DNA of 64,000 bases, taken from assembly GCF_022965805.1 (NCBI RefSeq), contig NW_027331298.1:36001-100000 (forward strand). Reading direction: 5' to 3'. The notes beneath the pieces are model-generated. The model worked only from the letters and a program-made list of their open reading frames with translations. It did not search any database and had not been told where the DNA came from. This stretch comes from Primulina eburnea. Its lineage: Eukaryota > Streptophyta > Magnoliopsida > Lamiales > Gesneriaceae. Made by a program: the position numbers and the translations under genes. Below, piece by piece: positions 22,791 to 54,600 of the stretch (position 1 is the stretch's first letter; the number at the start of each line of letters is the position of its first letter).

Positions 22791-22829
22791 GAGCCAACTA
22801 CCCATATGCTTTAAAACCCATTGATTCGC

Positions 22830-23275: not shown

Positions 23276-23280
23276 TTTTA

Positions 23281-27794: not shown

Positions 27795-27796
27795 CT

Positions 27797-29963
27797 TGAA
27801 AGGGGATCGGTTACGGTGACCGGAAGCGCAACGGAAGTCAAAAATTTCGATTTTTGTTCAAAAAATTTCGGCCACCTCAATGATTTGTGCAACAAATACA
27901 ATAAAACACAAAATGACATTCATAGGGTGTTTTAAGAAAATATACCTATCAATCTCAAAGATTGATGCAATGGCTCCAACCTTGTTGTCAAACAACAAAG
28001 CTCTTCAAAGGAAGACAAATCTACAAGCCTCCAAGCCTCCTTCTTTCCTTCAAAATCAAGCCCACCACCAACTAGGTAGATCCCCTCTTAATTTGCACTA
28101 GAAAATTAAGAGGATTTTTCAAAGAGAAGAGAGTGTTTTTCTCCAACAATTGAAGAACACAAAAGAGAGAAAAAAAAAATTTTTTTGGGAGAGAATGAGA
28201 GTGAGTTTCGGCCATCATGCTTGGAGGGAGAGGGAGAATGAGTTAATTGCATGTCTTGGTGTTGCAAAAAGCAAAAGTGAAAAAGTTGCATGCCATGCAA
28301 TTTTTTATTCAAAAGTAATCTCCACCTCTTCACCTCCCAAGCATGTATATTATATGGTTTTTATCAAAATAAAAACCATGGACTAAATTTAATTATCTCA
28401 AACATATTTGAGACTAATTAAACATTACTTGAATTTACCCAAGTCCCACTAGTTAAATAATTAATTTAAATTGAGCTCTACAAGACTCAATATAATTTAA
28501 TTAATTCAACACTTGAATTAATTTAATTATTTGGACTCTACTAGGTCCACTAGTGTTTAATTAATTCAACACTTGAATTAATTTAATTTAGTCCATAATA
28601 ATGTTTATGAAAATCACAATTTTCAAATACATTATTCACTTGGCCAAATTTTAATTTAGGAACACTTCCATAAATTAAAATTTACATTTCTCTCATAGAA
28701 GTCATACTTCTATTTTTCTTTACACTTATAAACTCATTTATAAGTCGTTAAACACATTGAACTATTTTCTCCTTTATAGAAGTCATACTTCTAATTTTCC
28801 TCACGCTTATAAACTCCTTTATAAGCCGTTCAACACATTGAACTATTTTTACTTCTCAACGGGATCTAGAAAGCTAGTACTTGTGTGGCCCTCAATGGTT
28901 CATTGATACAACTAGCCGTGGGTTCACATCTCCATGTGATTCGGACTAAACATGTCCTTATATGAGCATACCCCAATTGCTCCATTCTTACTTATCAACT
29001 CCTTGATAATAAGAACGTCAGAACTCAAGTCTGATAGTACCCAACCAATCATGTTAAACGCCTAGCAGCATCGGTTACATGATTCCCTAGGTATCAAATG
29101 ATAGTGCCTGCAAGAACCATTATATTATGGTTAGCGTACAGTACGGTCCCTTCAACTCATATATCCCGACCGATTCGACAACCATTGGTTTATCGAGAGT
29201 TGTCAATGAATCGATACTATGTGTCATGTCGTAGTTGCATCAATGGTGTAATCTATGAAACCCCTTTCATAATTACCAACATACTCTGATCAGAGATTTC
29301 AACCTACATACACATGATAACACATAGGATATCCATACCCGAAGGTAAGCGGTGAATCCCCGACTACAATGCATCGACTCCTACGTGTTTCGACAGAACA
29401 CCCAACCTTGCCACCTGATGACCCCATGAGAGTCGGTAAACAAGTCAAAGTGTAATTCTAGCACATAGAGTCTCAATGTTGTCCCGGGTCATAAGGACTA
29501 ATGGTGTACAACCATAAACCAGGACGTTTCCACTCGATAAGTGAGAACCACTTGGAAAGTCCTTTAATGGAGGGTTGTTCAGTGCACTCTACTAGGAGCA
29601 CCTATCTGCATGCTCGGACATCACAATGTCCCCTACCAATGAAACATGGTACTCACATCGCAGATACTAGTCTCTAACTCGAGCGGCCTATATCCTCCTT
29701 AGTGGCGGCTGAATCGACTAAGAACGGTTTAGAATATACAGTATTCCAAATATGAGTTTCATGATACTCATCATATGAGCATCTCATATTCTTTCTACTA
29801 TTTGTATATTCAAGGGCTTTATCTATGCAACTAGCATGGGTATACAGATAAAGATTTGCCAAAATAATAATTTCAAATATTATTAAAATAAAGATTGCTT
29901 ATACATAGAGTTTCATTGTGAACACTCGGCCAACACTTGGCTCGACGGGCACCTACTCCAACA
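27797..29963 (-). repeat. LTR B of V, 5' LTR (2167 bp)
   Basis: TG at 27797 and CA at 29962-29963. The right flank begins ATACT inside the gag of S. Its U3 side nearly matches LTR A; its U5 side instead resembles that of solo LTR C (end sequence CCGTTGCGCTTCCGG when read on the element strand). Small open frames conserved between A, B and C are explained by LTR homology. Confidence 0.92.
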
Positions 29964-30383
29964 ATACTAACTTATCCCACCAAGTCGTAGCATAGTCGGT
30001 AAACTCACTGCAAGCTCGTCTTACCTTCATTACTTCAGTATAATCATCCCGGCTCTCAAATACACACTCCATTCTCTCTTCCCACTCAAGGTACACCTTT
30101 GGATCAGCTTCCCCACTGAAAAATGGAATTGTCATCTTCATACCACTCTGTCTATACCCTTCCCGGCTTCTATACCCCTTATCCTCATCAAATCTCCTAT
30201 AACGATCCATGTTCAACAACGTATCTCCTCCAACTCTACTACCTCGCCTATTCTCATCAATATGCATATCATACATCTCCTCTTCTTCACACCTCCGATA
30301 TTTTTTTCGTTGAGGCTAAACTCCTTCTCCCACCTTCTATCCAACCCTCCTAACATCGTTTTAAATTGACGTCCGTCAATCAT
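29964..30383 (-). pseudogene. gag: S gag N-terminal part, frameshifted and truncated by V
   Basis: The likely start is ATG at 30381-30383 (MIDGRQFKTMLGGLD). The frame changes in an A-rich run near 30300 and continues as EEEEMYDMHIDENRRG to the capsid block FFSGEADPKVYLEWEERMECVF and EFTDYATTWWDKL, where V is inserted. About 130 codons remain. The ATG lies just inside a predicted 3' splice site. Confidence 0.8.
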
Positions 30384-31333: not shown

Positions 31334-32123
31334 TGATGTGAATCTTGATACGAATAAATAGCAAACACGATTAAAAGTGAATCGCACCCTCTATTCAATT
31401 ACAATAACAAGACGCGTGTGTTTTCCCGATCTTTTGATTCAAGTATTGTGTGATATTCACCTCTAAACTAGCAAGAGTTTAGCAACAAATAAACACGAGA
31501 GAAACAATCGCGTTTCGAGAGAACCTCCAAAGAACCCGCCCTTGGCAACCCTCGTGATACTCGATTGAAAAACGCCACAAAAGATAAATCTTTTGATATG
31601 TTTGATTTGATACAACGCAAAAGTTATAACGAAACTTAAGCTTGTGTTGAGAGAATTCTCAATATCATAAAAGATGAATAATAATCAATGTTGTGTTTAC
31701 AATCAATAAAATTCGTCTATATATTGACTACAAATAAAAAAGATATGAAATCTAGTTACCAAAATAAATAAAACTCTTATTTAGGAAAATAACTCTCCGT
31801 CCAAACTAAAGGGCACGGACCCCGTGTAGGCCTCCGGGTGAGAGTCCGTGTAGGCTCTGTAAAATTACTCTCCGGAAAACAATGGACACGGACCCAGTGC
31901 ACAGGTCCGTGCTCGGGTCCATGTAGACTCGGGTTTCTCTTCCTCAAATGTAATGGACACGGACCCCGTGTACTGGTCCGTGCTCGGGTCCGTGCAGCCT
32001 CGGTTCCTCAAAATAATGCTTGAATAATGTTCCTTCGGCTTTCCAACGTGCTCCCATGCATCACGAGCCCTTCTCCCTTGCTTATCAATAATTTGAACAC
32101 CATGCCCGGCCAGATTCACATCA
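31334..32123 (-). repeat. 5' LTR of S (790 bp)
   Basis: The ends form a perfect 10-bp inverted repeat, TGATGTGAAT at 31334 and ATTCACATCA ending at 32123. The LTR contains GC-rich self-complementary repeats at about 31808-32010. It is inserted in the integrase frame of T immediately before ATAGTG. Confidence 0.9.
31808..32010. repeat. GC-rich self-complementary repeats in the S LTR
   Basis: CACGGACCC and its complement GGGTCCGTG or GGTCCGTG recur. Two longer near-identical units lie at about 31880-31935 and 31960-32012, each reading GGACACGGACCC, then GGTCCGTGCTCGGGTCC. The pieces can pair with each other. Confidence 0.8.
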
Positions 32124-33079: not shown

Positions 33080-34753
33080 TGTGAGAACCCGAAAATTTCG
33101 ACCGAAGCAAATCAAGTAAGTAATATAAAAATTATTTAAAATGATTCAGTAATTTTTGTTTCAGTTAAACTACTTGAATAATAACTTAAATCTCATCAAA
33201 GTTAACTCGAGAAAGTAGATTCTAAGCTCGGGGATTAGCTCAACAGGAGGCCAAGCTACAAGTAACCGTATCCATTGAAGTGTTGCCAAGGGAGGAGTAA
33301 AACCCCAGCTCAAAGACGCAATCTTTCAGCTCAAGGAAGCTCAACCATGTTTGTCCTAAAATGAGAGCTAAAGGATTGGACAAGCTAATGGTGCAAGAAA
33401 TGATCTTTGAGGAAATCCATAGAAGAGCTAAGGGATGAGCTAGGAGATCAAGACACAATAATGATGCAAGAAATGGCTTTTGATGCTTGGTATGGAGCTT
33501 GAGAATTTACTAGTCTTTGACCACCTTAATGACCACATTTACACTCATGATTGGGCTCCAAGAAATCGGCCATTGGTGGCTAGATGAAGACACCATGCCA
33601 TGCAAAACCTTACAATCACCAAGCCAAAGGTTCGGCCATTTCCTCTCCAAAAATTTCGGTCCTCTTCCCTTCTCTCTAGCCCTCGGCCGAACTCAAGAAG
33701 AAAGAAGGAGGAAGTGTTGTGCAGTCCAGTGTCGCCATTCTGTGTCAAGGAGCTGCTCGACCGAAGATTTTAATTGTCTAAGTTGCGCCGAAGTGCTGCC
33801 GAAATTTCAAAAAAAGAATTTCGTGTAAAAAATTCAAGTAAGTGGGCTTTTGTTATATAATTCATTTCTATTTTTTAACTTTGATATGAAATAACGTGAC
33901 ATGCATGCTAGTATGTCATTTTCGAAAATAACTGTGTTTTATTTTAAAATTTCGATCGATTATGTGTTCTCTTTGTGCATCGAAATTCTTGGTTCCGCTG
34001 TGTCAGTACGAATAACTCTGAAATCTGAATATCTGAAAAGTTCTGTCTGAATTCTGTTTGCACTGTTACGACTCAAATTGAAATGAGACGAGAATTGTAG
34101 TTCTGTCTGGCCCCCATTGGTGGGTATAAAACCATGTTCTGTCTGGCCCCCATTGGTGGGTATAAAACCATGTTCTGGCCTCAACCCTTAGAGGACTAAC
34201 ATATTGGGGACAATTTGACCATGGAAATGAGATGAGTAACAGTGTTCTGTTTGTTCTGATATGTTCTGTTCCGAATTGAAATGATCTGTATTGCTTCTGT
34301 TTTGTTCTGAATCGTTTGATAAGTTCTGTCTCTTATTCGATTCGTTTCCGTTGTGCCAAGTTAAGAATATTAGTTTTGAAAGTATGTTAAAGAATTGTTT
34401 TAAGGAATTAAGTTCTATATGTATCTTTGGAATCGATCGACCCCCACTTGCTGAGTGTTTCCCAAAACACTCACCCCTTACAAATTTCAGATAAGAATGA
34501 GGAGCAACTGAATGAGGAAGAGCAAGATGCTTTCTGGGGTTGGTGAATCAGAGATCAAGATCAGAATTCAACATTTTACTTTTCTTTCGTTTCCGCTATT
34601 AGAAACTGTGATGTATTTTATTCCTTTGTCATTGTAAGACAATATTTCATTTATGAAAAAGACTGGTTTGATTTGATACGAGGCTTTATTGTTTTCAATT
34701 TAATTGTTAAACAATGCCGGATGTCACCGATGCTTCGGACTCGGGGCGTGACA
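33080..34753 (+). repeat. 3' LTR of T (1674 bp)
   Basis: Runs from TGTGAGAACCC to GGGGCGTGACA. Directly after it the integrase satellite begins with ATAGAAATG. A 36-bp tandem duplication carrying a TATA box is at 34100-34171. The other LTR is not in the window. Confidence 0.87.
34100..34171 (+). promoter_or_regulatory. Duplicated 36-bp TATA-box unit in the T LTR
   Basis: Two identical copies (34100-34135, 34136-34171) each contain CCCCCATTGG, a CCAAT-like box in reverse, and TATAAAA (34125-34131 and 34161-34167) in the direction of the element. They look like a doubled core promoter. Confidence 0.7.
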
Positions 34754-37700
34754 ATAGAAATGTTAATCCAAGTTTTTTTTAAGAATAGCACGCAAAAGTG
34801 CTCCCAAAGTTCTATTGACAACTTCAGTTTGTCCATCTGTTTGAGGATGACAAGTAGTAGAAAACAACAATTTTGTGCCAAGTTTTGCCCATAAAGTCTT
34901 CCAAAAGTAACTCAAGAATTTAACATCGCGACCAGAAACAATAGTCCTAGGCATGCCATGCAACCTAGCGACTTCTCTAAAGAACAAATCCGCCATGTTT
35001 GAAGCATCATCGGTTTTATGACAAGCTATAAAATGTGCCATCTTAGAGAATCTATCCACAACAACAAAAATAGAATCCCTCCCCTTCTTAGTCCTAGGCA
35101 ACCCCAAAATAAAGTCCATAGAAATGTCAATCCAAGTTCTTTTTAAGAATAGCACGCAAAAGTGTTCCCAAAGTTCTATTGACAACTTCAGTTTGTCCAT
35201 CCGTTTGAGGATGACAAGTAGTAGAAAACAACAATTTTGTGCCAAGTTTAGCCCATAAAGTCTTCCAAAAGTAACTCAAGAATTTAACATCGCGACTAGA
35301 AACAATAGTCCTAGGCATGCCATGCAACCTAGCGACTTCTCTAAAGAACAAATCCGCCATGTTTGAAGCATCATCGGTTTTATGACAAGCTATAAAATGT
35401 GCCATCTTAGAGAATCTATCCACAACAACAAAAATAGAATCCCTCCCCTTCTTAGTCCTAGGCAACCCCAAAATAAAGTCCATAGAAATGTCAATCCAAG
35501 TTCTTTTTAAGAATAGCACGCAAAAGTGTTCCCAAAGTTCTATTGACAACTTCAGTTTGTCCATCCGTTTGAGGATGACAAGTAATAGAAAACAACAATT
35601 TTGTGTCAAGTTTAGCCCATAAAGTCTTCCAAAAGTAACTCAAGAATTTAACATCGCGACCAGAAACAATAGTCCTAGGCATGCCATGCAACCTAGCGAC
35701 TTCTCTAAAGAACAAATCTGCCATGTTTGAAGCATCATCGGTTTTATGACAAGCTATAAAATGTGCCATCTTAGAGAATCTATCCACAACAACAAAAATA
35801 GAATCCCTCCCCTTCTTAGTCCTAGGCAACCCCAAAATAAAGTCCATAGAAATGTCAATCCAAGTTCTTTCTAAGAATAGCACGCAAAAGTGTTCCCAAA
35901 GTTCTATTGACAACTTCAGTTTGTCCATCCGTTTAAGGATGACAAGTAGTAGAAAAAAACAATTTTGTGCCAAGTTTATAGCCTATAAAGTCTTCCAAAA
36001 GTAACTCAAGAATTTAACATCGCGACCAGAAACAATAGTCCTAGGCATGCCATGCAACCTAGCGACTTCTCTAAAGAACAAATCCGCCATGTTTGAAGCA
36101 TCATCGGTTTTATGACAAGCTATAAAATGTGCCATCTTAGAGAATCTATCCACAACAACAAAAATAGAATCCCTCCCCTTCTTAGTCCTAGGCAACCCCA
36201 AAATAAAGTCCATAAAAATGTCAATCCAAGTTCTTTTTAAGAATAGTACGCAAAAGTTTTCCCAAAGTTCTATTGACAACTTCAGTTTGTCCATCCGTTT
36301 GAGGATGACAAGTAGTAGAAAACAACAATTTTGTGTCAAGTTTAGCCCATAAAGTCTTCCAAAAGTAACTCAAGAATTTAACATCGCGACCAGAAACAAT
36401 AGTCCTAGGCATGCCATGCAACCTAACGACTTCTCTAAAGAACAAATCAGCAAAGTTTGAAGCATCATCGGTTTTATGACAAGCTAAAAATGTGCCATCT
36501 TAGAGAATCTATCCACAACAACAAAAATAGAATCCCTCCCCTTCTTAGTCCTAGGCAACCCCAAAATAAAGTCCATAGAAATGTCAATCCAAGTTCTTTC
36601 TAAGAATAGCACGCAAAAGTGTTCCCAAAGTTCTATTGACAACTTCAGTTTGTCCATCCGTTTGAGGATGACAAGTAGTAGAAAAAAACAATTTTGTGCC
36701 AAGTTTATAGCCCATAAAGTCTTCCAAAAGTAACTCAAGAATTTAACATCGTGACCAGAAACAATAGTCCTGGGCACGCCATGCAACCTAGCAACTTCTC
36801 TAAAGAACAAATCCGCCATGTTTGAAGCATCATCGGTTTTAGGACAAGCTATAAAATGTGCCATCTTAGAGAATCTATCCACAACAATAAAAATAGAATC
36901 CCTCCCCTTCTTAGTCCTAGGCAACCCCAAAATAAATTCGTAGAAATGTCATTCCAAGTTCTTTTTAAGAATAGCACGCAAAAGTGTTCCCAAAGTTCTA
37001 TTGACAACTTCAGTTTGTCCATCTGTTTGAGGATGACAAGTAGTAGAAAACAACAATTTTGTGCCAAGTTTAACCCATAAAGCATTCAAAAAGTAACTCA
37101 AGAATTTAACATCGCGACCAGAAACAATAGTCCTAGGCATGCCATGCAACCTAGCGACTTAAGAACAAATCCGCCATGTTTGAAGCATCATCGGTTTTAT
37201 GACAAGCTATAAAATGTGCCATCTTAGAGAATCTATCCAGAACAATAAAAATAGAATCCCTCCCATTCTTAGTCCTAGGCAACCCCAAAATAAATTCGTA
37301 GAAATGTCAATCCAAGTTCTTTTTAAGAATAGCACGCAAAAGTGTTCCCAAAGTTCTATTGACAACTTCAGTTTGTCCATCAGTTTGAGGATGACAAGTA
37401 GTAGAAAACAATTTTGTGCCAAGTTTAGCCCATAAAGTCTTCCAAAAGTAACTCAAGAATTTAACATCGCGACCAGAAACAATAGTCCTAGGCATGCCAT
37501 GCAACCTAGCGACTTCTCTAAAGAACAAATCTGCCATGTTTGAAGCATCATCGGTTTTATGACAAGCTATAAAATGTGCCATCTTAGAGAATCTATCCAC
37601 AACAACAAAAATAGAATCCCTCTCCTTCTTAGCCCTAGGCAACCCCAAAATAAAGTCCATAGAAATGTCAATCCAAGTTCTTTTTAAGAATAGCACGCAA

Positions 37701-38290
37701 AAGTGTTCCCAAAGTTCTATTGACAACTTCAGTTTGTCCATCCGTTTGAGGATGACAAGTAGTAGAAAACAATTTTGTGCCAAGTTTAGCCCATAAAGTA
37801 TTCCAAAAGTAACTCAAGAATTTAACATCGCGACCAGAAACAATATTCCTAGGCATGCCATGCAACCTAGCGACTTCTCTAAAGAACAAATCCGCCATGT
37901 TTGAAGCATCATCGGTTTTATGACAAGCTATAAAATGTGCCATCTTAGAGAATCTATCCACAACAATAAAAATAGAATCCCTCCCCTTCTTAGTCCTAGG
38001 CAACCCCAAAATAAATTCGTAGAAATGTCATTCCAAGTTCTTTTTAAGAATAGCACGCAAAAGTGTTCCCAAAGTTCTATTGACAACTTCAGTTTGTCCA
38101 TCTGTTTGAGGATGACAAGTAGTAGAAAACAACAATTTTGTGCCGAGTTTAACCCATAAAGCATTCCAAAAGTAACTCAAGAATTTAACATCGCGACCAG
38201 AAACAATAATCCTAGGCATGCTATGCAACCTACAGACTTCTCTAAAGAACAAATCCGCAATGTTTGAAGCATCATCGGTTTTATGACAAG

Positions 38291-39592
38291 CTAAAAATGT
38301 GCCATCTTAGAGAATCTATCCACAACAACAAAAATAGAATCCCTCCCCTTCTTAGTCCTAGGCAACCCCAAAATAAAGTCCATAAAAATGTCAATCCAAG
38401 TTCTTTTTAAGAATAGCAAGCAAAAGTGTTCCCAAAGTTCTATTGACAACTTCAGTTTGTCCATCCGTTTGAGGATGACAAGTAGTAGAAAACAACAATT
38501 TTGTGCCAAGTTATCCCATAAAGTATTCCAAAAGTAACTCAAGAATTTAACATCGCGACCAGAAACAATAGTCCTAGGCATGCCATGCAACCTAGCGACT
38601 TCTCTAAAGAACAAATCTGCCATGTTTGAAGCATCATCGGTTTTATGACAAGCTATAAAATGTGCCATCTTAGAGAATCTATCCACAACAACAAAAATAG
38701 AATCCCTCTCCTTCTTAGCCCTAGGCAACCCCAAAATAAAGTCCATAGAAATGTCAATCCAAGTTCTTTTTAAGAATAGCACGCAAAAGTGTTCCCAAAG
38801 TTCTATTGACAACTTCAGTTTGTCCATCCGTTTGAGGATGACAAGTAGTAGAAAACAATTTTGTGCCAAGTTATCCCATAAAGTATTCCAAAAGTAACTC
38901 AAGAATTTAACATCGCGACCAGAAACAATAGTCCTAGGCATGCCATGCAACCTAGCGACTTCTCTAAAGAACAAATCTGCCATGTTTGAAGCATCATCGG
39001 TTTTATGACAAGCTATAAAATGTGCCATCTTAGAGAATCTATCCACAACAACAAAAATAGAATCTCTCCCCTTCTTAGTCCTAGGCAACCCCAAAATAAA
39101 GTCCATAAAAATGTCAATCCAAGTTCTTTTTAAGAATAGCAAGCAAAAGTGTTCCCAAAGTTCTATTGACAACTTCAGTTTGTCCATCCGTTTGAGGATG
39201 ACAAGTAGTAGAAAACTACAATTTTGTGCCAAGTTATCCCATAAAGTATTCCAAAAGTAACTCAAGAATTTAACATCGCGACCAGAAACAATAGTCCTAG
39301 GCATGCCATGCAACCTAGCGACTTCTCTAAAGAACAAATCTGCCATGTTTGAAGCATCATCGGTTTTATGACAAGCTATAAAATGTGCCATCTTAGAGAA
39401 TCTATCCACAACAACAAAAATAGAATCCCTCTCCTTCTTAGCCCTAGGCAACCCCAAAATAAAGTCCATAGAAATGTCAATCCAAGTTCTTTTTAAGAAT
39501 AGCACGCAAAAGTGTTCCCAAAGTTCTATTGACAACTTCAGTTTGTCCATCAGTTTGAGGATGACAAGTAGTAGAAAACAATTTTGTGCCAA
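38291..39592 (-). other. 433-codon open frame across several satellite units
   Basis: Here several units are 363 or 360 bp, multiples of three, because of small deletions (for example GTTATCCC in place of GTTTAGCCC). The frame therefore stays open through about 3.6 units. A similar 313-codon frame is at 44713-45654. There is no sign of a start context or regulation; probably a by-product of unit length. Confidence 0.6.
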
Positions 39593-40939
39593 GTTTAGCC
39601 CATAAAGTATTCCAAAAGTAACTCAAGAATTTAACATCGCGACCAGAAACAATAGTCCTAGGCATGCCATGCAACCTAGCGACTTCTCTAAAGAACAAAT
39701 CTGCCATGTTTGAAGCATCATCGGTTTTATGACAAGCTATAAAATGTGCCATCTTAGAGAATCTATCCACAACAACAAAAATAGAATCCCTCCCCTTCTT
39801 AGTCCTAGGCAACCCCAAAATAAAGTCCATAGAAATGTCAATCCAAGTTCTTTTTAAGAATAGCACGCAAAAGTGTTCCCAAAGTTCTATTGACAACTTC
39901 AGTTTGTCGATCCGTTTGAGGATGACAAGTAGTAGAAAACAACAATTTTGTGTCAAGTTTAGCCCATAAAGTCTTCCAAAAGTAACTCAAGAATTTAACA
40001 TCGCGACCAGAAACAATAGTCCTAGGCATGCCATGCAACCTAGCGACTTCTCTAAAGAACAAATCTGCCATGTTTGAAGCATCATCGGTTTTATGACAAG
40101 CTATAAAATGTGCCATCTTAGAGAATCTATCCACAACAACAAAAATAGAATCCCTCCCCTTCTTAGTCCTAGGCAACCCCAAAATAAAGTCCATAGAAAT
40201 GTCAATCCAAGTTCTTTCTAAGAATAGCACGCAAAAGTGTTCCCAAAGTTCTATTGACAACTTCAGTTTGTCCATCCGTTTGAGGATGACAAGTAGTAGA
40301 AAAAAACAATTTTGTGCCAAGTTTATAGCCTATAAAGTCTTCCAAAAGTAACTCAAGAATTTAACATCGCGACCAGAAACAATAGTCCTAGGCATGCCAT
40401 GCAACCTAGCGACTTCTCTAAAGAACAAATCCGCCATGTTTGAAGCATCATCGGTTTTATGACAAGCTATAAAATGTGCCATCTTAGAGAATCTATCCAC
40501 AACAACAAAAATAGAATCCCTCCCCTTCTTAGTCCTAGGCAACCCCAAAATAAAGTCCATAAAAATGTCAATCCAAGTTCTTTTTAAGAATAGTGCGCAA
40601 AAGTGTTCCCAAAGTTCTATTGGCAACTTCAGTTTGTCCATCCGTTTGAGAATGACAAGTAGTAGAAAACAACAATTTTGTGTCAAGTTTAGCCCATAAA
40701 GTCTTCCAAAAGTAACTCAAGAATTTAACATCGCGACCAGAAACAATAGTCCTAGGCATGCCATGCAACCTAACGACTTCTCTAAAGAACAAATCAGCAA
40801 ACTTTGAAGAATCATCGGTTTAATGACAAGCTAAAAATGTGCCATCTTAGAGAATCTATCCACAACAACGAAAATAGAATCCCTCCCCTTCTTAGTCCTA
40901 GGCAACCCCAAAATAAAGTCCATAGAAATGTCAATCAAA

Positions 40940-40944
40940 GTTCT
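40940..40944 (+). other. Left copy of 5-bp target duplication GTTCT
   Basis: GTTCT directly before the solo LTR, identical to 43007-43011. It belongs to the satellite unit (aaGTTCTTtt). Confidence 0.93.
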
Positions 40945-43006
40945 TGTTAGAGTAGGTGCACGTCGAGCCAAGTGTTGGCCGAGTGTTCACAATGAAACTC
41001 TATGTATAAACGATCTTTATTTTAATAATATTTGAATTTATTAATTTGGCGCATCTTTATCTTTATACCCATGCTAGTTGCATAGATAAAGTCCTTGAAT
41101 ATACAAATAATAGAAAGAATATGAGATGCTCATAAGATGAGTATCATGAAACTCATATTTGGAATACTGTATATTCTAAACGGTTCCTAGTCGATTCAGC
41201 CGCCATTAAGAAGGATATAGGCCGCTCGAGTTAGAGACTAGTATCTGCGATGTGAGTACCATGTTTCATTGGTCGGGGACATTGTGATGTCCGAACATGC
41301 AGATAGGTGCTCCTTGTAGAGTGCACTGAACAACCCTCTATAAAGGACTTTCCAAGTGGTTCTCACTTATCGAGTGGAAACGTCCTAGTTTATGGTTGTA
41401 CACCATTAGTCCTTATGACCCGGGACAACATTGAGACTCTATGTGCTAGCGTTTCACTTTGACTTGTTTACCGACTCCTATGGGGTCATCAGGTGGCAAG
41501 GTTGGGTGTTACGGCGAAACGTATAGGAGTCGATGCATTGTAGTCGGGGATTCACCGCTTACCTACGGGTATGGATATCCTATGTGTTTTTCATGTATGT
41601 GTGGATTGAAATCTCTGATCAGAGTATTGTGGTAATTATGAAAGGGGTTTCATAGATTACACCATCGATGCAACCACGACATGACACATAGTATCGATTC
41701 ATTGACAACTCTCGATAGACCAATAGTTGTCGAATCGGTCGGGATATATGAGTTGAAGGGACCGTACTGTACGCTAACCATAATTGAATGGTTCTTGCAG
41801 GCACTATCATGTGATACCTAGGGAATCACGTAAGCGATGCTGCTAGGCGTTTAACGTGATTGGTTGGGTACTATCAGACTTGAGTTCTGACGTTCTTACT
41901 ATCAAGGAGTTGATAAGTAAGAATGGAGCAATTGGGGTATGCTCGAATAAGGACATGTTTAGTCCGAATCACATTGAGATGTGAACCCACGGCTAGTTGT
42001 ATCAATGAACCATTGAGGGCCACACAAGTACTGGCTTTGTAAATCCCGATGAGAAATAAAATAGTTCAATGTGTTGAACGGCTTATAAATGTGTTTATAA
42101 GCGTTAAGAAAAATAGAAGTATGACTTCTAAGAGAGAAATATAAATTTTAATTTATGGAAGTGTTCCTAAGATTAAAATTTGGCCAAGTAAATAATGTAG
42201 TTGAAAATTGTGATTTTCATAAACATTGTTGTGGACTAAATTAAATTAATTCAAGTGTTGAATTAATTAAACACTAGTGGACCTAGTAGAGTCTAAATAA
42301 TTAAATTAATTCAAGTGTTGAATTAATTATATAATATTGAGTCTTGTAGAGCTCAATTAAAATAATTATTTAACTAGTGGGACTTGAATAAATTCAAGTA
42401 GTATTTAATTAATCTAAAAAATGTTTGAGATAATTAAAATTTAGTCTATGGTTTTTAATGTGTTAAAAACCATAATATATATGAGAGACATGCTAGGGTT
42501 TGCATGCTTGGGAGATCAAGAGTCTTGAATACTTTTTAATAAAATAATGCATGGCATGTGGATTACTTTTTGGACTACCAAGACTCATCTTCCCTCCTCA
42601 TTCAACTTGACTTGGCCGAAAATTCCTTGAGTTTTTCTCTCTCATTTTTCAAGTTTAGTTCTTCAATTTTTGGAGAGCAAAAATCATTCTCATTGAAAAA
42701 TCCTTGAGTTTTTCTAGTGCAAAACTTGAGGGGATTTACCTTGTTAAGTGGTGGGCCTTATTTCTTGAAGGAAAGGAGTTGGAGGCTTGTAGATCTTCAA
42801 CCAAGAAGAGCTAAAGTATTTATACTTTAGTTGGTGCCATTACATCAACCTCAAGAGGTTGATAGGTAAATCTTTCTTAAACATCCTATGTATGGTGTTT
42901 GTTTTGTAAATATTGCATAAAAATCTTGGTGGCCGAAAATCTTGCTTGAAAAATAAAATTTTTGACTTCCGTTGCGCTTCCGGCCACCGTAACCGGTCCG
43001 CTTTCA
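40945..43006 (+). mobile_element. Solo LTR C of the V copia family (2062 bp)
   Basis: Starts TGTTAGAGTAGG and ends CCGCTTTCA, the reverse orientation of LTRs A and B, with clear homology along its length. It is flanked by perfect GTTCT duplications and by satellite on both sides, with no interior. This is the product of LTR-LTR recombination after insertion into the satellite. Confidence 0.95.
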
Positions 43007-46000
43007 GTTCTTTCTAAGAATAGCACGCAAAAGTGTTCCCAAAGTTCTATTGACAACTTCAGTTTGTCCATCCGTTTGAGGATGACAAGTAGTAGAAAAA
43101 AACAATTTTGTGCCAAGTTTATAGCCCATAAAGTCTTCCAAAAGTAACTCAAGAATTTAACATCGTGACAAGAAACAATAGTCCTGGGCACGCCATGCAA
43201 CCTAGCGACTTCTCTAAAGAACAAATCCGCCATGTTTGAAGCATCATCGGTTTTATGACAAGCTATAAAATGTGTCATCTTAGAGAATCTATCCACAACA
43301 ATAAAAATAGAATCCCTCCCCTTCTTAGTCCTAGGCAACCCCAAAATAAGTTCGTAGAAATGTCATTCCAAGTTCTTTTTAAGAATAGCACGCAAAAGTG
43401 TTCCCAAAGTTCTATTGACAACTTCAGTTTGTCCATCTGTTTGAGGATGACAAGTAGTAGAAAACAACAATTTTGTGCCAAGTTTAACCCATAAAGCATT
43501 CAAAAAGTAACTCAAGAATTTAACATCGCGACCAGAAACAATAGTCCTAGGCATGCCATGCAACCTAGCGACTTCTCTAAAGAACAAATCCGCCATGTTT
43601 GAAGCATCATCGGTTTTATGACAAGCTATAAAATGTGCCATCTTAGAGAATCTATCCACAACAATAAAAATAGAATCCCTCCCCTTCTTAGTCCTAGGCA
43701 ACCCCAAAATAAATTCGTAGAAATGTCATTCCAATTCTTTTTAAGAATAGCACGCAAAAGTGTTCCCAAAGTTCTATTGACAACTTCAGTTTGTCCTTTT
43801 GTTTGAGGATGACAAGTAGTAGAAAACAACAATTTTGTGCCAAGTTTAACCCATAAAGCATTCCAAAAGTAACTCAAGAATTTAACATCGCGACCAGAAA
43901 CAATAATCCTAGGCATGCATTGCAACCTAACGACTTCTCTAAAGAACAAATCCACAATGTTTGAAGCATCATCGGTTTTATGACAAGCTATAAAATGTGC
44001 CATCTTAGAGAATCTATCCAAACAATAAAAATAGAATCCCTCCCCTTCTTAGTCCTAGGCAACCCCAAAATAAATTCGTAGAAATGTCATTCCAAGTTCT
44101 TTTTAAGAATAGCACGCAAAAGTGTTCCCAAAGTTCTATTGACAACTTCAGTTTGTCCATCTGTTTGAGGATGACAAGTAGTAGAAAACAACAATTTTGT
44201 GCCAAGTTTAACCCATAAAGCATTCCAAAAGTAACTCAAGAATTTAACATCACGACCAGAAACAATAATCCTAGGCATGCTATGCAACCTAACGACTTCT
44301 CTAAAGAACAAATCCGCAATGTTTGAAGCATCATCGGTTTTATGACAAGCTAAAAATGTGCCATCTTAGAGAATCTATCCACAACAAAAAAAATAGAATC
44401 CCTCCCCTTCTTAGTCCTAGGCAACCCCAAAATAAAGTTCATAGAAATGTCAATCCAAGTTCTTTTTAAGAATAGCACGCAAAAGTGTTCCCAAAGTTCT
44501 ATTGACAACTTCAGTTTGTCCATCCGTTTGAGGATGACAAGTAGTAGAAAACAACAATTTTGTGTCAAGTTTAGCCCATAAAGTCTTCCAAAAGTAACTC
44601 AATAATTTAACATCGCGACCAGAAACAATAGTCCTAGGCATGCCATGCAACCTAACGACTTCTCTAAAGAACAAATCTGCCATGTTTGAAGCATCATCGG
44701 TTTTATGACAAACTAAAAATGTGCCATCTTAGAGAATCTATCCACAACAACAAAAATAGAATCCCTCCCCTTCTTAGTCCTAGGCAACCCCAAAATAAAG
44801 TCCATAAAAATGTCAATCCAAGTTCTTTTTAAGAATAGCAAGCAAAAGTGTTCCCAAAGTTCTATTGACAACTTCAGTTTGTCCATCCGTTTGAAGATGA
44901 CTAGTAGTAGAAAACAACAATTTTGTGCCAAGTTATCCCATAAAGTATTCCAAAAGTAACTCAAGAATTTAACATCGCGACCAGAAACAATAGTCCTAGG
45001 CATGCCATGCAACCTAGCGACTTCTCTAAAGAACAAATCTGCCATGTTTGAAGCATCATCGGTTTTATGACAAGCTATAAAATGTGCCATCTTAGAGAAT
45101 CTATCCACAACAACAAAAATAGAATCCCTCCCCTTCTTAGTCCTAGGCAACCCCAAAATAAAGTCCATAAAAATGTCAATCCAAGTTCTTTTTAAGAATA
45201 GCAAGCAAAAGTGTTCCCAAAGTTCTATTGACAACTTCAGTTTGTCCATCCGTTTGAGGATGACAAGTAGTAGAAAACAACAATTTTGTGCCAAGTTATC
45301 CCATAAAGTATTCCAAAAGTAACTCAAGAATTTAACATCGCGACCAGAAACAATAGTCCTAGGCATGCCATGCAACCTAGCGACTTCTCTAAAGAACAAA
45401 TCTGCCATGTTTGAAGCATCATCGGTTTTATGACAAGCTATAAAATGTGCCATCTTAGAGAATCTATCCACAACAACAAAAATAGAATCCCTCTCCTTCT
45501 TAGCCCTAGGCAACCCCAAAATAAAGTCCATAGAAATGTCAATCCAAGTTCTTTTTAAGAATAGCACGCAAAAGTGTTCCCAAAGTTCTATTGACAACTT
45601 CAGTTTGTCCATCCGTTTGAGGATGACAAGTAGTAGAAAACAATTTTGTGCCAAGTTTAGCCCATAAAGTATTCCAAAAGTAACTCAAGAATTTAACATC
45701 GCGACCAGAAACAATATTCCTAGGCATGCCATGCAACCTAGCGACTTCTCTAAAGAACAAATCCGCCATGTTTGAAGCATCATCGGTTTTATGACAAGCT
45801 ATAAAATGTGCCATCTTAGAGAATCTATCCACAACAATAAAAATAGAATCCCTCCCCTTCTTAGTCCTAGGCAACCCCAAAATAAATTCGTAGAAATGTC
45901 ATTCCAAGTTCTTTTTAAGAATAGCACGCAAAAGTGTTCCCAAAGTTCTATTGACAACTTCAGTTTGTCCATCTGTTTGAGGATGACAAGTAGTAGAAAA

Positions 46001-47673
46001 CAACAATTTTGTGCCGAGTTTAACCCATAAAGCATTCCAAAAGTAACTCAAGAATTTAACATCGCGACCAGAAACAATAATCCTAGGCATGCTATGCAAC
46101 CTACAGACTTCTCTAAAGAGCAAATCCGCAATGTTTGAAGCATCATCGGTTTTATGACAAGCTAAAAATGTGCCATCTTAGAGAATCTATCCACAACAAC
46201 AAAAATAGAATCCCTCCCCTTCTTAGTCCTAGGCAACCCCAAAATAAAGTTAATAGAAATGTCAATCCAAGTTCTTTTTAAAAATAGCACGCAAAAGTGT
46301 TCCCAAAGTTCTATTGACTACTTCAGTTTGTCCATCCATTTGAGGATGACAAGTAGTAGAAAACAACAATTTTGTGCCAAGTTTAGCCCATAAAGTATTC
46401 CAAAAGTAACTCAAGAATTTAACATCGCGACCAGAAACAATAGTCCTAGGCATGCCATGCAACCTAGCGACTTCTCTAAAGAACAAATCTGCCATGTTTG
46501 AAGCATCATTGGTTTTATGACAAGCTATAAAATGTGCCATCTTAGAGAATCTATCCACAACAACAAAAATAGAATCCCTCTCCTTCTTAGTAGTAGGCAA
46601 CCCCAAAATAAAGTCCATAGAAATGTCAATCCAAGTTCTTTTTAAGAATAGCACGCAAAAGTGTTCCCAAAGTTCTATTGACAACTTCAGTTTGTCCATC
46701 TGTTTGAGGATGACAAGTAGTAGAAAACAACAATTTTGTGCCAAGTTTTGCCCATAAAGTCTTCCAAAAGTTACTCAAGAATTTAACATCGCGACCAGAA
46801 ACAATAGTCCTAGGCATGCCATGCAACCTAGCGACTTCTCTAAAGAACAAATCCGCCATGTTTGAAGCATCATCGGTTTTATGACAAGCTATAAAATGTG
46901 CCATCTTAGAGAATCTATCCACAACAACAAAAATAGAATCCCTCCCCTTCTTAGTCCTAGGCAACCCCAAAATAAAGTCCATAGAAATGTCAATCCAAGT
47001 TCTTTTTAAGAATAGCACGCAAAAGTGTTCCCAAAGTTCTATTGACAACTTCAGTTTGTCCATCCGTTTGAGGATGACAAGTAGTAGAAAACAACAATTT
47101 TGTGCCAAGTTTAGCCCATAAAGTCTTCCAAAAGTAACTCAAGAATTTAACATCGCGACCAGAAACAATAGTCCTAGGCATGCCATGCAACCTAGCGACT
47201 TCTCTAAAGAACAAATCCGCCATGTTTGAAGCATCATCGGTTTTATGACAAGCTATAAAATGTGCCATCTTAGAGAATCTATCCACAACAACAAAAATAG
47301 AATCCCTCCCCTTCTTAGTCCTTGGCAACCCCAAAATAAAGTCCATAGAAATGTCAATCCAAGTTCTTTTTATGAATAGCACGCAAAAGTGTTCCCAAAG
47401 TTCTATTGACAACTTCAGTTTGTCCATCCGTTTGAGGATGACAAGTAGTAGAAAACAACAATTTTGTGTCAAGTTTAGCCCATAAAGTCTTCCAAAAGTA
47501 ACTCAAGAATTTAACATCGCGACCAGAAACAATAGTCCTAGGCATGCCATGCAACCTAACGACTTCTCTAAAGAACAAATCTGCCATGTTTGAAGCATCA
47601 TCGGTTTTATGACAAACTAAAAATGTGTTATCTTAGAGAATCTATCCACAACAACAAAAATAGAATCCCTCCC
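43007..47673 (-). repeat. Integrase-derived satellite array, right block (about 13 units)
   Basis: Continuation of the left block after the solo LTR, beginning with the second GTTCT (43007-43011). The units include several subtypes: [10 protein letters not shown] with a FCLEF-type altered junction, [13 protein letters not shown], and [11 protein letters not shown]. These subtypes occur in the same order as in the left block. The array ends within a unit at 47673, where X begins. Confidence 0.95.
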
Positions 47674-49811
47674 TGTGGGGACCCGGGCTCTAACTCAATT
47701 ATTTTGGGATTTATTGGATATTTGCTCGAAAATGTGGGTCAAAATTTTGCTTTTAACATGAACTCAAATGTATAATTAAAGCATAACATGTCTCTATATT
47801 AATTAAACAACATAATGTACATACAAGTCTGTCTAGTACAATCATACGCTAGTGTTTAAATACCAACTACAAATATCAGTAGTACAAGTCTAATAAGCAA
47901 ACACTAGAAATCTTCAACGCCCGAGATCTCCACGCTATCCTCAACCTCTCATCTAGCTCGAGACCCAGATCCTGCCCCACCTGTTGCCATGCACAAATAT
48001 AGACACGACAACAGCCGGATAACTCCGGTGAGAACAAATCCCAGTATAAAACATGGTAAGCATGTATAGAAACAATCTAAATCATAAAACATGCTATCAT
48101 GAACATATTCAAAAGTAATAGATTTCATAATCTATGAAAACAAATCAAAATTAGCATGCAACCCAATTCAGATACACATGAAATTTAAATCAAATCATAT
48201 AAACATGTTGTCATGACTGAAAGCAATAAACATGGATTTCATAGTCTATGAAACCACATTCATAACCACATGCAGTTCTAGTCAACTCATGTCTAGACTC
48301 GACTCAACTATATCTCTAGGGATCCCGGGGTGAATAAGACGTCACTGTCTGTCACCTACCCTCCCAATCGGGGTGACGTACGTCTTATTCCTAGACTTCG
48401 GTCATATCTGTATCGAATAATCTACAATAGGAGGGTGTCTGCTCCTATGTAACGATACACCGAACGTCTAGAAGTCTGACTATCTGTCAAACTTTCCTAC
48501 CTCAAATGCAATGTATAACAATCTGTAAACAAAGCATGTTCATTTCAAAGGATTTGAATATAAAGTCTATAAACAAATCACAATTATATCAAAAGATAAA
48601 CAATAATCAAGTATGTGATTTTATTGGGAAACTCAAATGAGATCTGATTTGAGTTATATCTTCCCAGATATCACATGAATTATACCTTTGTCGTCCTTGT
48701 CTGACGAAGACGAAGTCTCGAAGTCCAATCTGTCCATATCAAGTCTGAGATGACAATATCAAATACACTGTATCAATGTGTAACTCAATTCACGATCTGT
48801 TCTGATCAATACTCAACTCAGTATATAATCTGATCAATCTAAATTCACTGATGTTTCAACGGCATACTAACACAGTCTTGTAACTCCGTAAATCACAACA
48901 TCACTGATATCATATCTAATTCATAACACAGACATATGGTATAATTTCCTCAGTCTGATTCCACAAATATACCGAATAATCTATTCAGAACATATGAGAA
49001 TAATCATTTCTCCATTCTTGAATCAAGAACAATACCAATCTAGTGTTCAATCTAAATCAATATCTTCAGAAAATCATAACAATTGTATAAACAGTCTATT
49101 CGTAAATCTGACTTCGATTATACAATACCTACGGTAGCAAACACACCATATCTGAACCATATACAGTTCTAACAACATCATATTTCCAAAACATCTCAAA
49201 ACGTAATAAAACTTACGTCCTTGTGTAGCTCGAGTCGAGAGGAGTACGGTACTACGTTCAAATTCGAATTCTGATGAACGGTCCTTCCACAATCGCCAAT
49301 CAAAAAGGCGTAAGGATTTTCTATCAAAATGTCGACCTCCTTTTCTGAAATTCTGAGGGAAAACGTGTCATTCCTCTATATATATACTGCATGCATTTCA
49401 TGAAACGTGGCATCATTTTTCATGCAACACGCATGACCGTGGGTGCGGTGAGTGTAAGGAGCGCGGGTGCGCTCAAGCGGTGATCCTAGCCATTCTCTCG
49501 GCAGCTCATACCGCGGGTGCGCTTCTTGCAAGACCGCGGGTGCGGTGTCATCAGCGCGGGTGCGCTCCGTCTAATACCGCAGGTGCGGTGTGTCTACGGG
49601 ATTTGTACTTCATTTTCTGCACATGCACCGCGGGTGCGGTCGTGCTAGCACCGCGGGTGCGGTCGTGCAAACTTCTAAATTCTAGCTTTCTGATCATGCA
49701 ACACCTGGTTTCTCAAATCTTTCTTCCCTCATTGCATGTCATGCATTCTCATATCTTTCGAGTCTTACATTAACGAATTGGTTATCAATTCTATAATTCT
49801 TGGGCATTACA
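47674..49811 (-). repeat. 3' LTR of X (2138 bp)
   Basis: On the plus strand it starts TGTGGGGACCCGGGC and ends GGCATTACA. The left flank in the satellite is CTCCC. It carries eight copies of the ACCGCGGGTGCGGT-type repeat near 49440-49672. No coding sequence is supported in its 2.1 kb. Confidence 0.87.
49436..49672. repeat. Eight ACCGCGGGTGCGGT-like repeats in the X LTR
   Basis: Variants of the 14-bp box (ACCGCGGGTGCGGT, AGCGCGGGTGCGCT, ACCGCAGGTGCGGT) recur with short spacers. They are the reverse complement of the boxes in the Y and Z LTRs. The outer ACCGC/GCGGT halves are self-complementary. Confidence 0.88.
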
Positions 49812-49886
49812 TTTCTCCCCCTCTTAGATCTGAGTTCGTCCTCGAACTCTCAAGTAATCAATTCAGCTATACGAGAAGAAATGTAT
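49812..49886 (-). other. Polypurine tract and 3' interior end of X
   Basis: The minus strand reads TAAGAGGGGGAGAAA next to the LTR. Upstream is CGAGGACGAACTC, the usual end motif of this group. The interior is cut at TGTAT (49882-49886), the left flank of Y. Confidence 0.8.
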
Positions 49887-51501
49887 TGTAATAGCCGAGC
49901 CCGGTGTACGGTACGGTTTAAGCTTTATTGTGTTAATTGGGTTATGTGATTAGATGATTATAGTTGTGTTTTGGGCTATAGTATTATTGGTTATTATTTA
50001 TTTGAGGTGTTAGTTGGTGTTGATTGTTCGTTTCAGCGTTTCGAATCGATTTTAGTTGTTTTGTTACTGTTCATTGCCGTGAGTAGAGTGCACCCGCGCT
50101 CTTAGATGAGTGCCCCCGCGGTGTACTATTCATGATTTTGGATTTGGAGGGCCGTGGCATCACCGCACCCGCGGCAGTGCAAGGACCGCACCCGCGGTGA
50201 GACCGCACCCGCGGTATTTGTAGCACCGCACCCGCGGTGATCGTGCATGGGATTTATTTTGGTTGCCGTGAGCTTAGCGCACCCGCGGTGCTTGTGTGAC
50301 CGCACCCGCGGTGTAAGTATGGGCGAGATATTTAGTACCTTTTTGATTGAGTTGACTTCATTCCATACCTTATCTTATCTTCTTTTCGAGATTTTCTCTC
50401 CTTTTGGCAAGGGTTTTCTCCATTTCTTTTGCTTCCTATCTTTGTTTCTTGGAGTTATTTGGATTTTCGACTTGAGATCATCGTTCTCCGTGGTATAAGG
50501 AAGCTTAGGTAAGTTTTTGGTGCGATTCTAATGAGGTTTCGAGTTAAGGGTTATTTTGGATTTGATGTTTTGATGGTTCTATGGATTATTTAGCATGGAC
50601 TCTTGGATTTAGTCTTGATATTGGTGTTATTTATGGATTATTGTTGTAGGTGGTGTACCAAGAGTATAGTTGGAGGTGTTCTATTGGTTTGTAAGTGGAA
50701 TTTCCTCCCTTGTGCTCACATGATATTATATGTATTGTGTTTTAAAGGTTTCAAAGTGTTATTCCCTTCCATTGATCCATTGTTATGTATTGATTTCATT
50801 GATTATCTATTGGAGGCATTGATGTCTCACTATTGTTAAAAAGGGAATACAAGAGATATTATGAGATTGCGAAACGACGGCCTTAAATGCTATTGAGAAT
50901 TCAAATGTTTTATTGGATTGATTAATCATAGCCATAGCATTGCATGCAATTAGATGATCATCGACCATAGGCTTTTATCCCCTCACAGTTATCGATTTAT
51001 ATCGATGGGATATTGGCAACCACAGTCACAGATACTATTGATATCAATCCAACCAGAGAAAAGAGAATACCATCGTATTGCTATCTATTGCTATTGCTAT
51101 TGCTACAGTTATTGCTACGTTATTCATGTTTCAGAGTCGATGGTATTTATGATTTAAAAGCCATGTTTTACAGAGTATACTATGTATCATTGCTATGTAA
51201 GAGTTCCACTTGCTGAGATTTATTCTCATTTCAGTTATTTCATGTGATGCAGATAAGAGCGACGGACCGGGACGTTGACTGTGGATGGGGGTCATATGCA
51301 TACGAAGATTGGAAGGATGATTATTTTGTACCATTTTGTAACATGATCACACTAATGATATTTTGTATTTTGTTATGTCATTGGAATGATCATGTTGTTA
51401 TTTTGTAAACACTTTTATAAAATGTATTTTTAAACTCCTTCCGTTTGAAAGAAAATTTTAAATTCCGCTGTATTTTAATTGTAACGGGTCAGGGTGTCAC
51501 A
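49887..51501 (+). repeat. 5' LTR of Y (1615 bp)
   Basis: Runs from TGTAATAGCCGAGCCC to GGTCAGGGTGTCACA. It carries eight ACCGCACCCGCGGT-type boxes (50088-50314). Comparison with 56095-57551 shows about four substitutions and a 5-bp difference near 50920. No gene is supported within it. Confidence 0.95.
50088..50316. repeat. Eight ACCGCACCCGCGGT-like boxes in the Y LTR
   Basis: Includes four exact or near-exact ACCGCACCCGCGGT boxes between 50160 and 50240 and degenerate ones (GTGCACCCGCGCTC, GTGCCCCCGCGGTG, GCGCACCCGCGGTG). The 3' LTR repeats the set at 56296-56524, with one C-to-A change in the last box. Confidence 0.9.
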
Positions 51502-51506
51502 TTTAG

Positions 51507-51518
51507 TGGTATCAGAGC
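51507..51518 (+). promoter_or_regulatory. Primer binding site of Y (initiator tRNA-Met)
   Basis: TGGTATCAGAGC, five bases after the LTR end. Confidence 0.93.
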
Positions 51519-51635
51519 ACCGGTTCTTCGGACCAATGCATATGACTTCGTCTACTTTCAACTGTCCGGGTATGTTTTCTTGCATCTATCCATTGTTATA
51601 TATATTGATTGGTGTCTTGTGAGCAATTGTAGAGT

Positions 51636-54600
51636 ATGCCTCCTAAGCGTAAGGCAGCAGAGGGTGAGGATAGTTCTTCCTCGAGAGTTGTCGACGAGTT
51701 CGGCAAGTTGCTTAAGGAGCAGGCTAAGGTGCATAGCGATCAGATTCAACAGTTGCTCCGATTGCAAGGAGCAGGACAGGGTCGAGGCCAAGTGAGAGGT
51801 CCAGTTGCTCAGGCTGTTGGCACTGATGCCGTCTTTTCTTCTTTTAAGAGAATGGATCCACCGGAATTCGCAGGTAGCACCGATCCTCTAGTTGCTGTCG
51901 AGTGGGTCAAGGCGCTTGAAGCTATCTTCGATCATCTCCAGTATGAGGACAAAGACAGGATTAGCTGTGCAGTGTTTTTGCTGGTTAAGGCTGCCCGCAT
52001 TTGGTGGAATGCTACGAAAGTTGGAGTTGATGTTGCGACACTGAAGTGGTCAGAGTTCACTGACTTGTTCTACGACAAGTATTTCCCCGACGCACTTCGA
52101 GCGAGGAAGGTTACGGAGTTCTTGGAACTTCGACAGGGGAGCTTGGATGTTGGCCAGTATATCCTGAAGTTTGAGGAGGGTTGCCTATTTGCTCCGTATA
52201 TTGCTTCGAACGACAAGGACAAGGGCGCTCATTTCATTCGAGGCCTTAGAGCGGAGATTCGTCGTGATATCAACATGTCTAAAGCTGTTACTTTCAAGGA
52301 GATTGTGTCCAAAGCATTGTTGGCCGAGCAAGATGAGAAGGACATCACCAGGGAGAGGCAGGAGAGACACCAGGCCATTGCTCAGAGAGGCCAGGGTTCG
52401 AATCAGAGGGGCAGGGATCGTTTCAAGGGCAAGGGCAAGATGGAGCCGAGTTCTAGACCACCGCCAGTTCCATTTGATCCCGAGAAGCCACTGTGTCCAA
52501 AGTGTGGTAAGCATCATCGAGGAGAGTGCAGATTGGGCACTCATACTTGTTTTCGTTGTGGCGCGGCGGGCCACGTTGCTAGGAATTGCCCGAGGGGAGA
52601 TAGCCAAGGGAAGGTGCAGGGTCGTATCTTTGCGATGACCAAGGAAGGTATTAATCGTGATTCTTCATTGATCTCTAGTACTATTTTGATTTCAGGCAGA
52701 GTAGCTACTACTTTGATTGATACTGGTGCTACTCATTCTTTTATGTCTGAATTATTTTTGAGATCTTTGGGTATAGTTCCTTCTGTTCTTCCCCTCCAGC
52801 TTAATGTTGTTTTACCTTCGGGGGATGTCTTGTGCCCGACATCAATTGTCTTTGCGTGCCCTGTTCGTATTGAGGAGCGAGTTGTATTCGCTGATTTGAT
52901 TGTTATCCCTATGGTTGCCTTCGATGTTATTCTTGGCATGGATTGGCTTTCGACTTACCGTGCAGTTATCGATTGTGTTGCTAAGAAGGTGACTTTTGCA
53001 GATGATGGCCAGGGAGGAGCGCTCGCCAGCACAGGTACTTCGCTGGTCCTTCCTTTTATTTCTTGCTTTGAGGCTGAGAGATTGTTGTGTAGAGGTTGCG
53101 ATGGGTTTCTTGCTTCTATTGTGGATGTTGATAGATTGATTAAGTTGAATGTAGATGATATTGATGTGGTGAGGGAGTTTGCTGATGTGTTTGAGGATGA
53201 TGTTCCGGGTTTGCCGCCGGATAGAGATGTTGAGTTTGTGGTTGATTTAGCTCCAGGTACGGTTCCTATTTCTAAGGCTCCGTACCGGATGGCCCCTACC
53301 GAGATGAAGGAGTTGAAGACTCAGTTGCAGGATCTTTTAGACAAGGGCTTTATTCGTCCGAGTTCTTCGCCTTGGGGAGCTCCGGTTCTATTTGTCAAGA
53401 AGAAGGATGGTTCTATGCGACTGTGTATCGACTACAGGGAGCTTAACAAAGTAACTGTCAAGAACAAGTATCCGTTGCCTCGGATAGATGATTTGTTTGA
53501 TCAGCTCCATGGTGCTACTATGTTCTCGAAGATTGATCTTCGGTCTGGCTACTATCAGTTTAAGGTTAGGGAGTCTGATATCCCTAAGACAGCTTTCCGG
53601 ACCAGGTACGGTCACTATGAGTTTCTTGTCATGTCTTTTGGTTTGACCAATGCCCCTTCAGTCTTCATGGATCTGATGAACCGTGTGTTCAAGCCTTATC
53701 TGGATAGCTTCGTTATTGTTTTCATCGACGATATCTTGATCTATTCCAAATCCAGAGAGCTTCATGCAGAGCATCTCAGAGTTGTTCTTCAGTTGTTGCG
53801 AGAGAAGAGATTGTTTGCCAAGCTGAAGAAGTGTGAGTTTTGGCTGGATCAGATTTCTTTTCTAGGCCATGTGGTTTCGAGAGATGGCATTGCTGTTGAT
53901 CCGTTGAAGATTGAGGCGATTCAGAATTGGCCTATTCCTACCACCGTTTCTGAGGTACGCAGTTTCCTCGGTTTGGCGGGTTACTATCATCGTTTCATTT
54001 CAGGTTTCTCCAAGATTGCCCTGCCATTGTCCAATCTGACGAGGAAGACTGTGAAGTTCGAGTGGTCTATCTATTGCCAGAGTGCATTTCAGGAGTTGAA
54101 GGACAGATTGACGACAGCTCCTGTTCTTTCTTTGCCCAGTGGTTCAGAGGATTTTGTGGTCTATACCGATGCGTCGAAGAGAGGCCTTGGTGCAGTGTTG
54201 ATGCAGCGAGGTAAGGTTATTGCCTATGCTTCTCGCCAGTTGAAGGATTATGAGAAGAATTATCCGACGCACGATTTGGAGCTTGCAGCTGTGGTTTTCG
54301 CCCTTAAGATTTGGAGACATTATCTGTATGGCGAAAAGTGTGAGATCTTCACAGACCACAAGAGTTTGAAGTATCTGTTCTCGCAGAAAGAGCTCAATAT
54401 GCGACAGAGGAGGTGGTTAGAGCTTGTCAAGGATTACGATGTGACGATCAGTTATCACCCAGGGAAGGCGAATGTTGTGGCTGATGCTTTGAGCCGCAAG
54501 TCGAGTGCTTCATTGAGTTCTTTGATTCAGAGACCATTGTTGATGGATTTGCAGAGAGAGGAGATTGATCTGGTGATTCCAGGGACCATTGCTCGCTTTT

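Follow-up and report, generated by a model that had tools for sequence, protein, structure and literature searches.

How could a satellite DNA come to consist of the catalytic core of a retrotransposon integrase and of no other part of its element? The question is raised by positions 34754-47673 of a 64,000-nucleotide stretch of the Primulina eburnea (Gesneriaceae) genome (hereafter the window; C768:36001-100000 in an assembly whose 1,224 contigs total 812,487,562 bases), where units of about 364 bp stand head to tail and the minus strand of each reads as an integrase slice. For most satellites the source has decayed, and with it the means of knowing how they were born. In this case one assembly contains the monomer, close parents, a microhomology breakpoint, unrearranged flanks, higher-order repeats and later insertions, and since parents and junction are present together the birth can be traced to one breakpoint. 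We hold with high confidence that the P. eburnea satellite originated in a single internal stretch of a Ty3/gypsy pol gene.

The array and its abundance in the genome

Tandem Repeats Finder (TRF) reported a period of 364 with 17.1 copies at 34754-40949 and a period of 363 with 12.9 copies at 43006-47673, each with 96% matches. BLAST with one 364-bp unit (35118..35481, minus strand; the query used throughout) resolved the array into 28 full and 3 partial units, all head to tail in a single orientation, with the full units 95.3-100% identical in this comparison, and gave no match outside the array within the 64-kb window. The first part of the array (34754..40955) contains 17 full units and one partial (40922-40955), and the second (43006..47673) contains 11 full units with two partials at its ends; the integrase sense lies on the minus strand in both. 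Without the insert that separates them the array totals about 10.87 kb, so that the initial annotation's estimate of some 30 units and 10.9 kb was accurate. The full window units measure 363 bp (10 units), 364 bp (8), 361 bp (4), 366 bp (3), and 359, 360 and 362 bp (1 each). An Rfam scan of the whole window returned nothing at the gathering threshold.

The satellite reaches far beyond the window, a scale that the initial annotation had not recognised and that the search for other loci it proposed made plain. An array query of 801 bases gave 114 matches across many contigs (40 of 5,027 candidates scored), and 20 stretches fetched from them (L009-L028) all contain the identical kind of unit. Together with the window these 21 stretches supply the sample of 408 full units used below, whose modal length is 364 bp (184/408). 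Across the assembly, a 32-mer spanning the unit-to-unit junction, with up to 3 mismatches, occurs at 73,050 sites (34,213 + 38,837), and the reversed-pattern control occurs at 0; at 364 bp per junction this comes to roughly 26.6 Mb, which is 3.3% of the assembly. By comparison, the sequence that directly adjoins the slice in the parental element was found at 168 sites upstream (91 + 77) and 484 sites downstream (241 + 243), again with 0 in the controls, and both flanks are scattered across chromosomes among the matches listed. The slice thus exceeds its own flanks about 150- to 430-fold, and its amplification did not involve the remainder of the element. Among the first 100 matches listed, array positions form one or two clusters per chromosome on several of them, for example at 31.6-32.7 Mb of C1, 41.8-43.7 Mb of C3, 29.1-31.0 Mb of C5 and 12.5-12.8 Mb of C13.

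It might be asked whether so repetitive a region reflects collapsed or duplicated reads from one locus, particularly as C768 is exactly 100,000 and C1107 exactly 300,000 bases long, which suggests cut or scaffolded contigs. We consider such an artefact extremely improbable: arrays are present in the chromosome-size contigs C1, C3, C5, C6 and C13 as well as in many small contigs, their units differ by about 3% and have locus-specific higher-order patterns, and the inserts within them are not alike between loci.

A protein search with a 323-amino-acid open reading frame (ORF) of the array gave 5,366 matches, and none of the 120 listed covers more than 65% of it; the search gave no sign of this integrase satellite in another species, a weak negative since predicted proteins only were searched. 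Among four sequences that were read, two predicted proteins, P0246 (Paspalum notatum) and P0247, contain two-copy duplications that include the integrase core and are independent of the satellite.

The breakpoint and the parental copies

Parental copies were sought with a degenerate pattern that cannot match a normal satellite junction; it hit 249 places, of which 100 were listed and ten fetched. Eight of the ten (L042, L043, L044, L046, L047, L049, L050 and L051) contain a single copy of the slice between stretches of integrase sequence, so that the search for a parental element recommended at the outset succeeded. The closest is L050 (C14:10665150-10667150), in which the slice is uninterrupted and aligns over 364/364 columns at 98.1% identity to a window unit; the monomer is thus homologous along its full length to one transposable element (TE) family of the same genome. 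In the other seven the slice is 87-96% identical to that unit. L050 is the nearest of the eight parents for 407 of the 408 sampled units, and the satellite majority differs from it at 4 columns; at 2 of these, the catalytic codon discussed below and one other, all eight parents side with L050. Around its slice L050 encodes RNase H, an H2C2 zinc finger, rve and SH3_Tf2-1 domains, the pol order, from RNase H to an SH3 C-terminus, of Ty3/gypsy elements; as to a possible place of the parent in the centromeric (CRM) clade, no Pfam chromodomain was found in two parental C-terminal pieces, that of L050 included, at E values up to 0.1. In a tree the eight parents fall outside the most recent common ancestor of the units with a support of 0.0, which establishes nothing firm, and column comparisons were used instead.

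These parents locate the breakpoint. They read ...GAGCCT followed by TGGATTGAC at the start of the slice and ...AAGAACT followed by TAAAGAATTGG at its end (in L043, by TGAAGAATTGG), and the satellite junction reads ...AAGAACTTGGATTGAC.... Comparison of these sequences indicates that the junction is the parental end of the slice joined to its start, and that it is one and the same in the sampled arrays: its strict form occurs in 282 of the 408 units and point variants in 12, and 114 were unmatched by the regular expression. The two parental slice ends, 364 bp apart, have CTT or CTTG in common, a microhomology of 3-4 bp. A single tandem duplication accounts for the length of the units, for the shift of frame in those of 364 bp and for the absence of other element parts. 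The initial annotation had called this a satellite made purely from an integrase core, and the uninterrupted slice in the parents, together with a single junction found 73,050 times, bears that out; no complete element sequence accompanies the units elsewhere in the sample, and the parents examined carry the slice once.

The first dimer may have arisen by microhomology-mediated tandem duplication across CTT/CTTG; alternatively, a 364-bp piece could have been circularised, copied by rolling circle and reinserted. Its later increase to about 73,000 copies would be due to unequal exchange and segment duplication, together with transfer from one chromosome to another. Some between-chromosome step is necessary, since the one junction occurs on many chromosomes; as to whether unequal exchange or rolling-circle spread predominated, the data fit either alike.

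Several points weigh against this derivation. The founding dimer was not found, and the first step is therefore one that we infer. The 114 units that the regular expression missed were taken from the list as point variants of the one junction and were not individually checked. Of the ten places fetched, L045 and L048 proved to be array and were rejected as parents, and the remaining "parents" are mostly dead copies, with stops in the read frame of 4 of the 8 slices (L044, L046, L047 and L051). L050 need not be the real donor: it is the nearest among the eight slices compared, whereas there are 168 flank sites or more. The copy number depends on an assembly in which many contigs are unplaced.

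A second tandem repeat was found on C14, the contig of L050, at 11.88 Mb, and C14 10.7-11.9 Mb contains both. This repeat (L052, C14:11879700-11881700) has a unit of about 688 bp made of L050 positions 1-255, about 670-913 and other DNA, and a rearranged relative lies 0.39 Mb away (L053, C14:11490000-11491800); the satellite junction is absent from what was read of the 688-bp repeat. Taken with the 364-bp satellite, the L052 repeat means that this gypsy family has given rise to tandem repeats on more than one occasion. Two of the parental copies, L046 (C6:5751600-5753600) and L047 (C6:7902500-7904500), have an 870-bp pol piece embedded in 1.9 kb of surrounding sequence that agrees at 99.4% between the two loci, and the context upstream of the piece matches window 31581-32054; from this likeness, it seems that integrase sequence was captured by a small family of elements.

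Coding ancestry without coding function

The integrase identity of the units is clear from one that scores 34.7 bits against PF00665 rve (cut-off 32.6), over profile positions 10-102 of 102. When one slice was used as a protein query, 7,204 relatives were returned, and those among the 120 listed are ordinary integrase pieces only; 15 were aligned. The initial annotation had the same integrase slice encoded in every unit. There is one slice per unit, as it said, but the slice has its exact length and no stop in only 8 of the 28 window units and 91 of the 408 sampled units; indels are present in 20/28 and 224/408, and stops in 0/28 and 93/408, respectively.

Could the array nevertheless be a selected repeat protein, in which tandem integrase-core domains are retained for function? 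Open frames of 443 amino acids (38291..39622, minus strand, running over several 363-bp units) and 323 amino acids (44713..45684, minus strand, likewise) do cover several units. Both, however, read one half of every unit in the wrong frame; the 443-amino-acid frame is a by-product and no gene, and the 323-amino-acid frame is of the same sort. The frame shift at each 364-bp junction had been offered as an argument against selection for such a protein; it applies to 364-bp units but fails for 363-bp units, which stay open across junctions, so that codon positions provide the better argument. Substitutions of the 408 units relative to the column majority are distributed over codon positions 1:2:3 as 774:878:900, whereas differences among the eight parental slices are distributed as 158:209:630. 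The even spread in the units, which the parents lack, indicates that the units are without coding constraint. With no third-position excess in the units, so few exact-length, stop-free slices, and a catalytic codon that most units have lost, a function as a repeat protein is next to impossible, and the earlier conclusion that there is no such selection stands on this firmer footing.

The lost codon is that of the second catalytic aspartate, which is missing in 384 of the 408 units and kept in all eight parents. It is GAT in 24 units, GGT in 352 and in other states in 32, and it is GAT or GAC in 8/8 parents and likewise intact in 15/15 aligned protein relatives. The D-D-35-E triad of exact-length units reads D,G,E in 147 and D,D,E in 9, the second aspartate being mostly glycine. 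Loss of the codon probably dates from the early days of the satellite lineage and has since come to affect about 94% of sampled units, given that the other diagnostic change is near fixation (399/408) and this one stands at about 91% G in its column (370/408). CG sites did not stand out when deamination context was compared. Fifteen of the 24 GAT-bearing units form one clade across L013-L015 (support 0.866). We considered the GAT units as markers of the oldest arrays and dropped the idea, since they are no nearer to L050 than the others (3.3% against 2.8%); for the same reason, retention of GAT and back-mutation to it are indistinguishable. The catalytic-codon change and the codon-position contrast together part coding ancestry from coding function. 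The case also carries a warning: gene and domain annotation is liable to label such arrays integrase genes.

Homogenisation, later insertions and related satellites

Units are more alike within stretches than between them, mean divergence being 2.96% and 3.57%, respectively, over the 408 units, and the nearest neighbour of 306 of them (27/28 in the window) lies within the unit's own stretch. Higher-order periods differ from locus to locus, with best lags of 12 units in the window, 11 in L022, 10 in L025, 9 in L020 and L028, 8 in L015 and L024, 7 in L010, 5 in L013 and L017, and 4 in L021; L018, L019, L026 and L027 are near-uniform, at about 1% divergence. Higher-order periodicity particular to each locus is the pattern left by unequal exchange together with duplication of segments, and suggests ordinary satellite homogenisation. 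With monomers of constant length head to tail in long arrays, a high copy number at many loci, local homogenisation and higher-order repeats, the sequence behaves in these respects as a satellite. At C1:35003260-35017363, exact junction matches lie 2465 bp apart, six times except the last, and resemble a very uniform higher-order repeat.

Arrays carried inside long terminal repeat (LTR) retrotransposons of the Ogre/Retand type and spread with them are common in plants, and have seeded satellites in Lathyrus (PMC7004042); the borders of the integrase satellite, moreover, are mostly LTR-like ends. In the window, an LTR-like element end (...GGGGCGTGACA; 34714..34753, identified by eye) forms the left border and an LTR-like element start (TGTGGGGACCCGGGC...; 47674..48064, with an inverted relative at 58981-59371) the right one. 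Since both resemble ends of other LTR elements, the true array edge is not visible in the window. Among the 15 array edges read, about 11 have LTR-like ends by eye, and these are not uniform, since they belong to at least two families and face either way. The array continues past all 9 inserts found inside arrays, 5 of which are LTRs with clean 5-bp target duplications by eye (GTTCT in the window, AGAGA in L009, TAGAT in L010, TTACA in L017 and AAAAT in L025). Array resumption and target duplications mean that the elements entered the arrays and not the reverse; the edges and inserts place the array at no fixed position inside an element, and the repeat is mid-pol coding sequence and not a 3' untranslated array. 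That the satellite is element-borne in the Ogre/Retand manner is therefore highly unlikely.

The window's own insert is a solo LTR (TG...CA, 2062 bp, 40945..43006) that splits the array and is bracketed by GTTCT at 40940-40944 and 43007-43011. Its family includes the LTRs at 20504-22775 and 27704-29965, which belong to a complete-looking element (20504-29965; 2.3-kb LTRs, 91.9% identical), and a 4.1-kb insert in the L014 array. Another of the nine inserts (L012:2277-3055) is an element of 0.78 kb whose ends are inverted, and it matches window 31334-32123 at 95.4%.

The integrase satellite is a TE-derived satellite, and as such of a known kind. For maize CRM1TR/CRM4TR, illegitimate recombination has been proposed as the first step, and these resemble our case in local homogenisation and later LTR insertions into arrays; they derive from LTR plus untranslated region, with units of about 700-1370 bp at few loci (PMC3648361), in contrast to the integrase core only, 364 bp and tens of thousands of copies here. 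The Lathyrus sativus satellites from Ogre 3' repeats are likewise retrotransposon-derived, with short precursor repeats that expanded into arrays, but start from tandem repeats already downstream of gag-pol (PMC7004042); the source here is coding, and no tandem precursor was seen inside the element. The initial annotation thought an origin from the core unusual, a view that is too strong to the extent that satellites from TE coding parts are already tabulated: the gag-derived cereba repeat of Aegilops speltoides, the seal Pvc 20 repeat from LINE-1 (long interspersed nuclear element 1) ORF2 and the chicken HinfI repeat from CR1 ORF2 (PMC9659126). In these too a coding TE part became a tandem repeat, but its source was gag or LINE ORF2, and the passages of that review consulted name no integrase core. 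A satellite from the integrase core alone was not found in the literature searched, outside which most subscription papers lie. What is new is the integrase-core-only source, the scale, and an identifiable parent and breakpoint; the integrase core thereby joins the TE parts able to seed a major satellite.

We also think it possible, although unlikely, that this is a working centromere or pericentromere satellite whose transcripts also feed small RNAs that silence the parent and related gypsy families. Such RNAs would correspond to the best-conserved region of the parent's integrase and for that reason would hold the parent family silent; if so, a dead, catalytically mutated piece of an element would silence its own parent family, a TE trap in the form of a satellite.

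Two further observations concern LTR elements. One family, whose ends read TGTGGGGACC...CTTACA, is met repeatedly both within arrays and at their borders (L009, L011, L012, L015, L016, L017, L024, L025, L028 and window 47674); a preference of this family for the integrase satellite is possible. Finally, window 49885-57551 is an LTR retrotransposon with LTRs (49885-51348 and 56093-57551) that are 99.4% identical and with long gag-pol frames between them (51633-56054), and it looks like a recent insertion.

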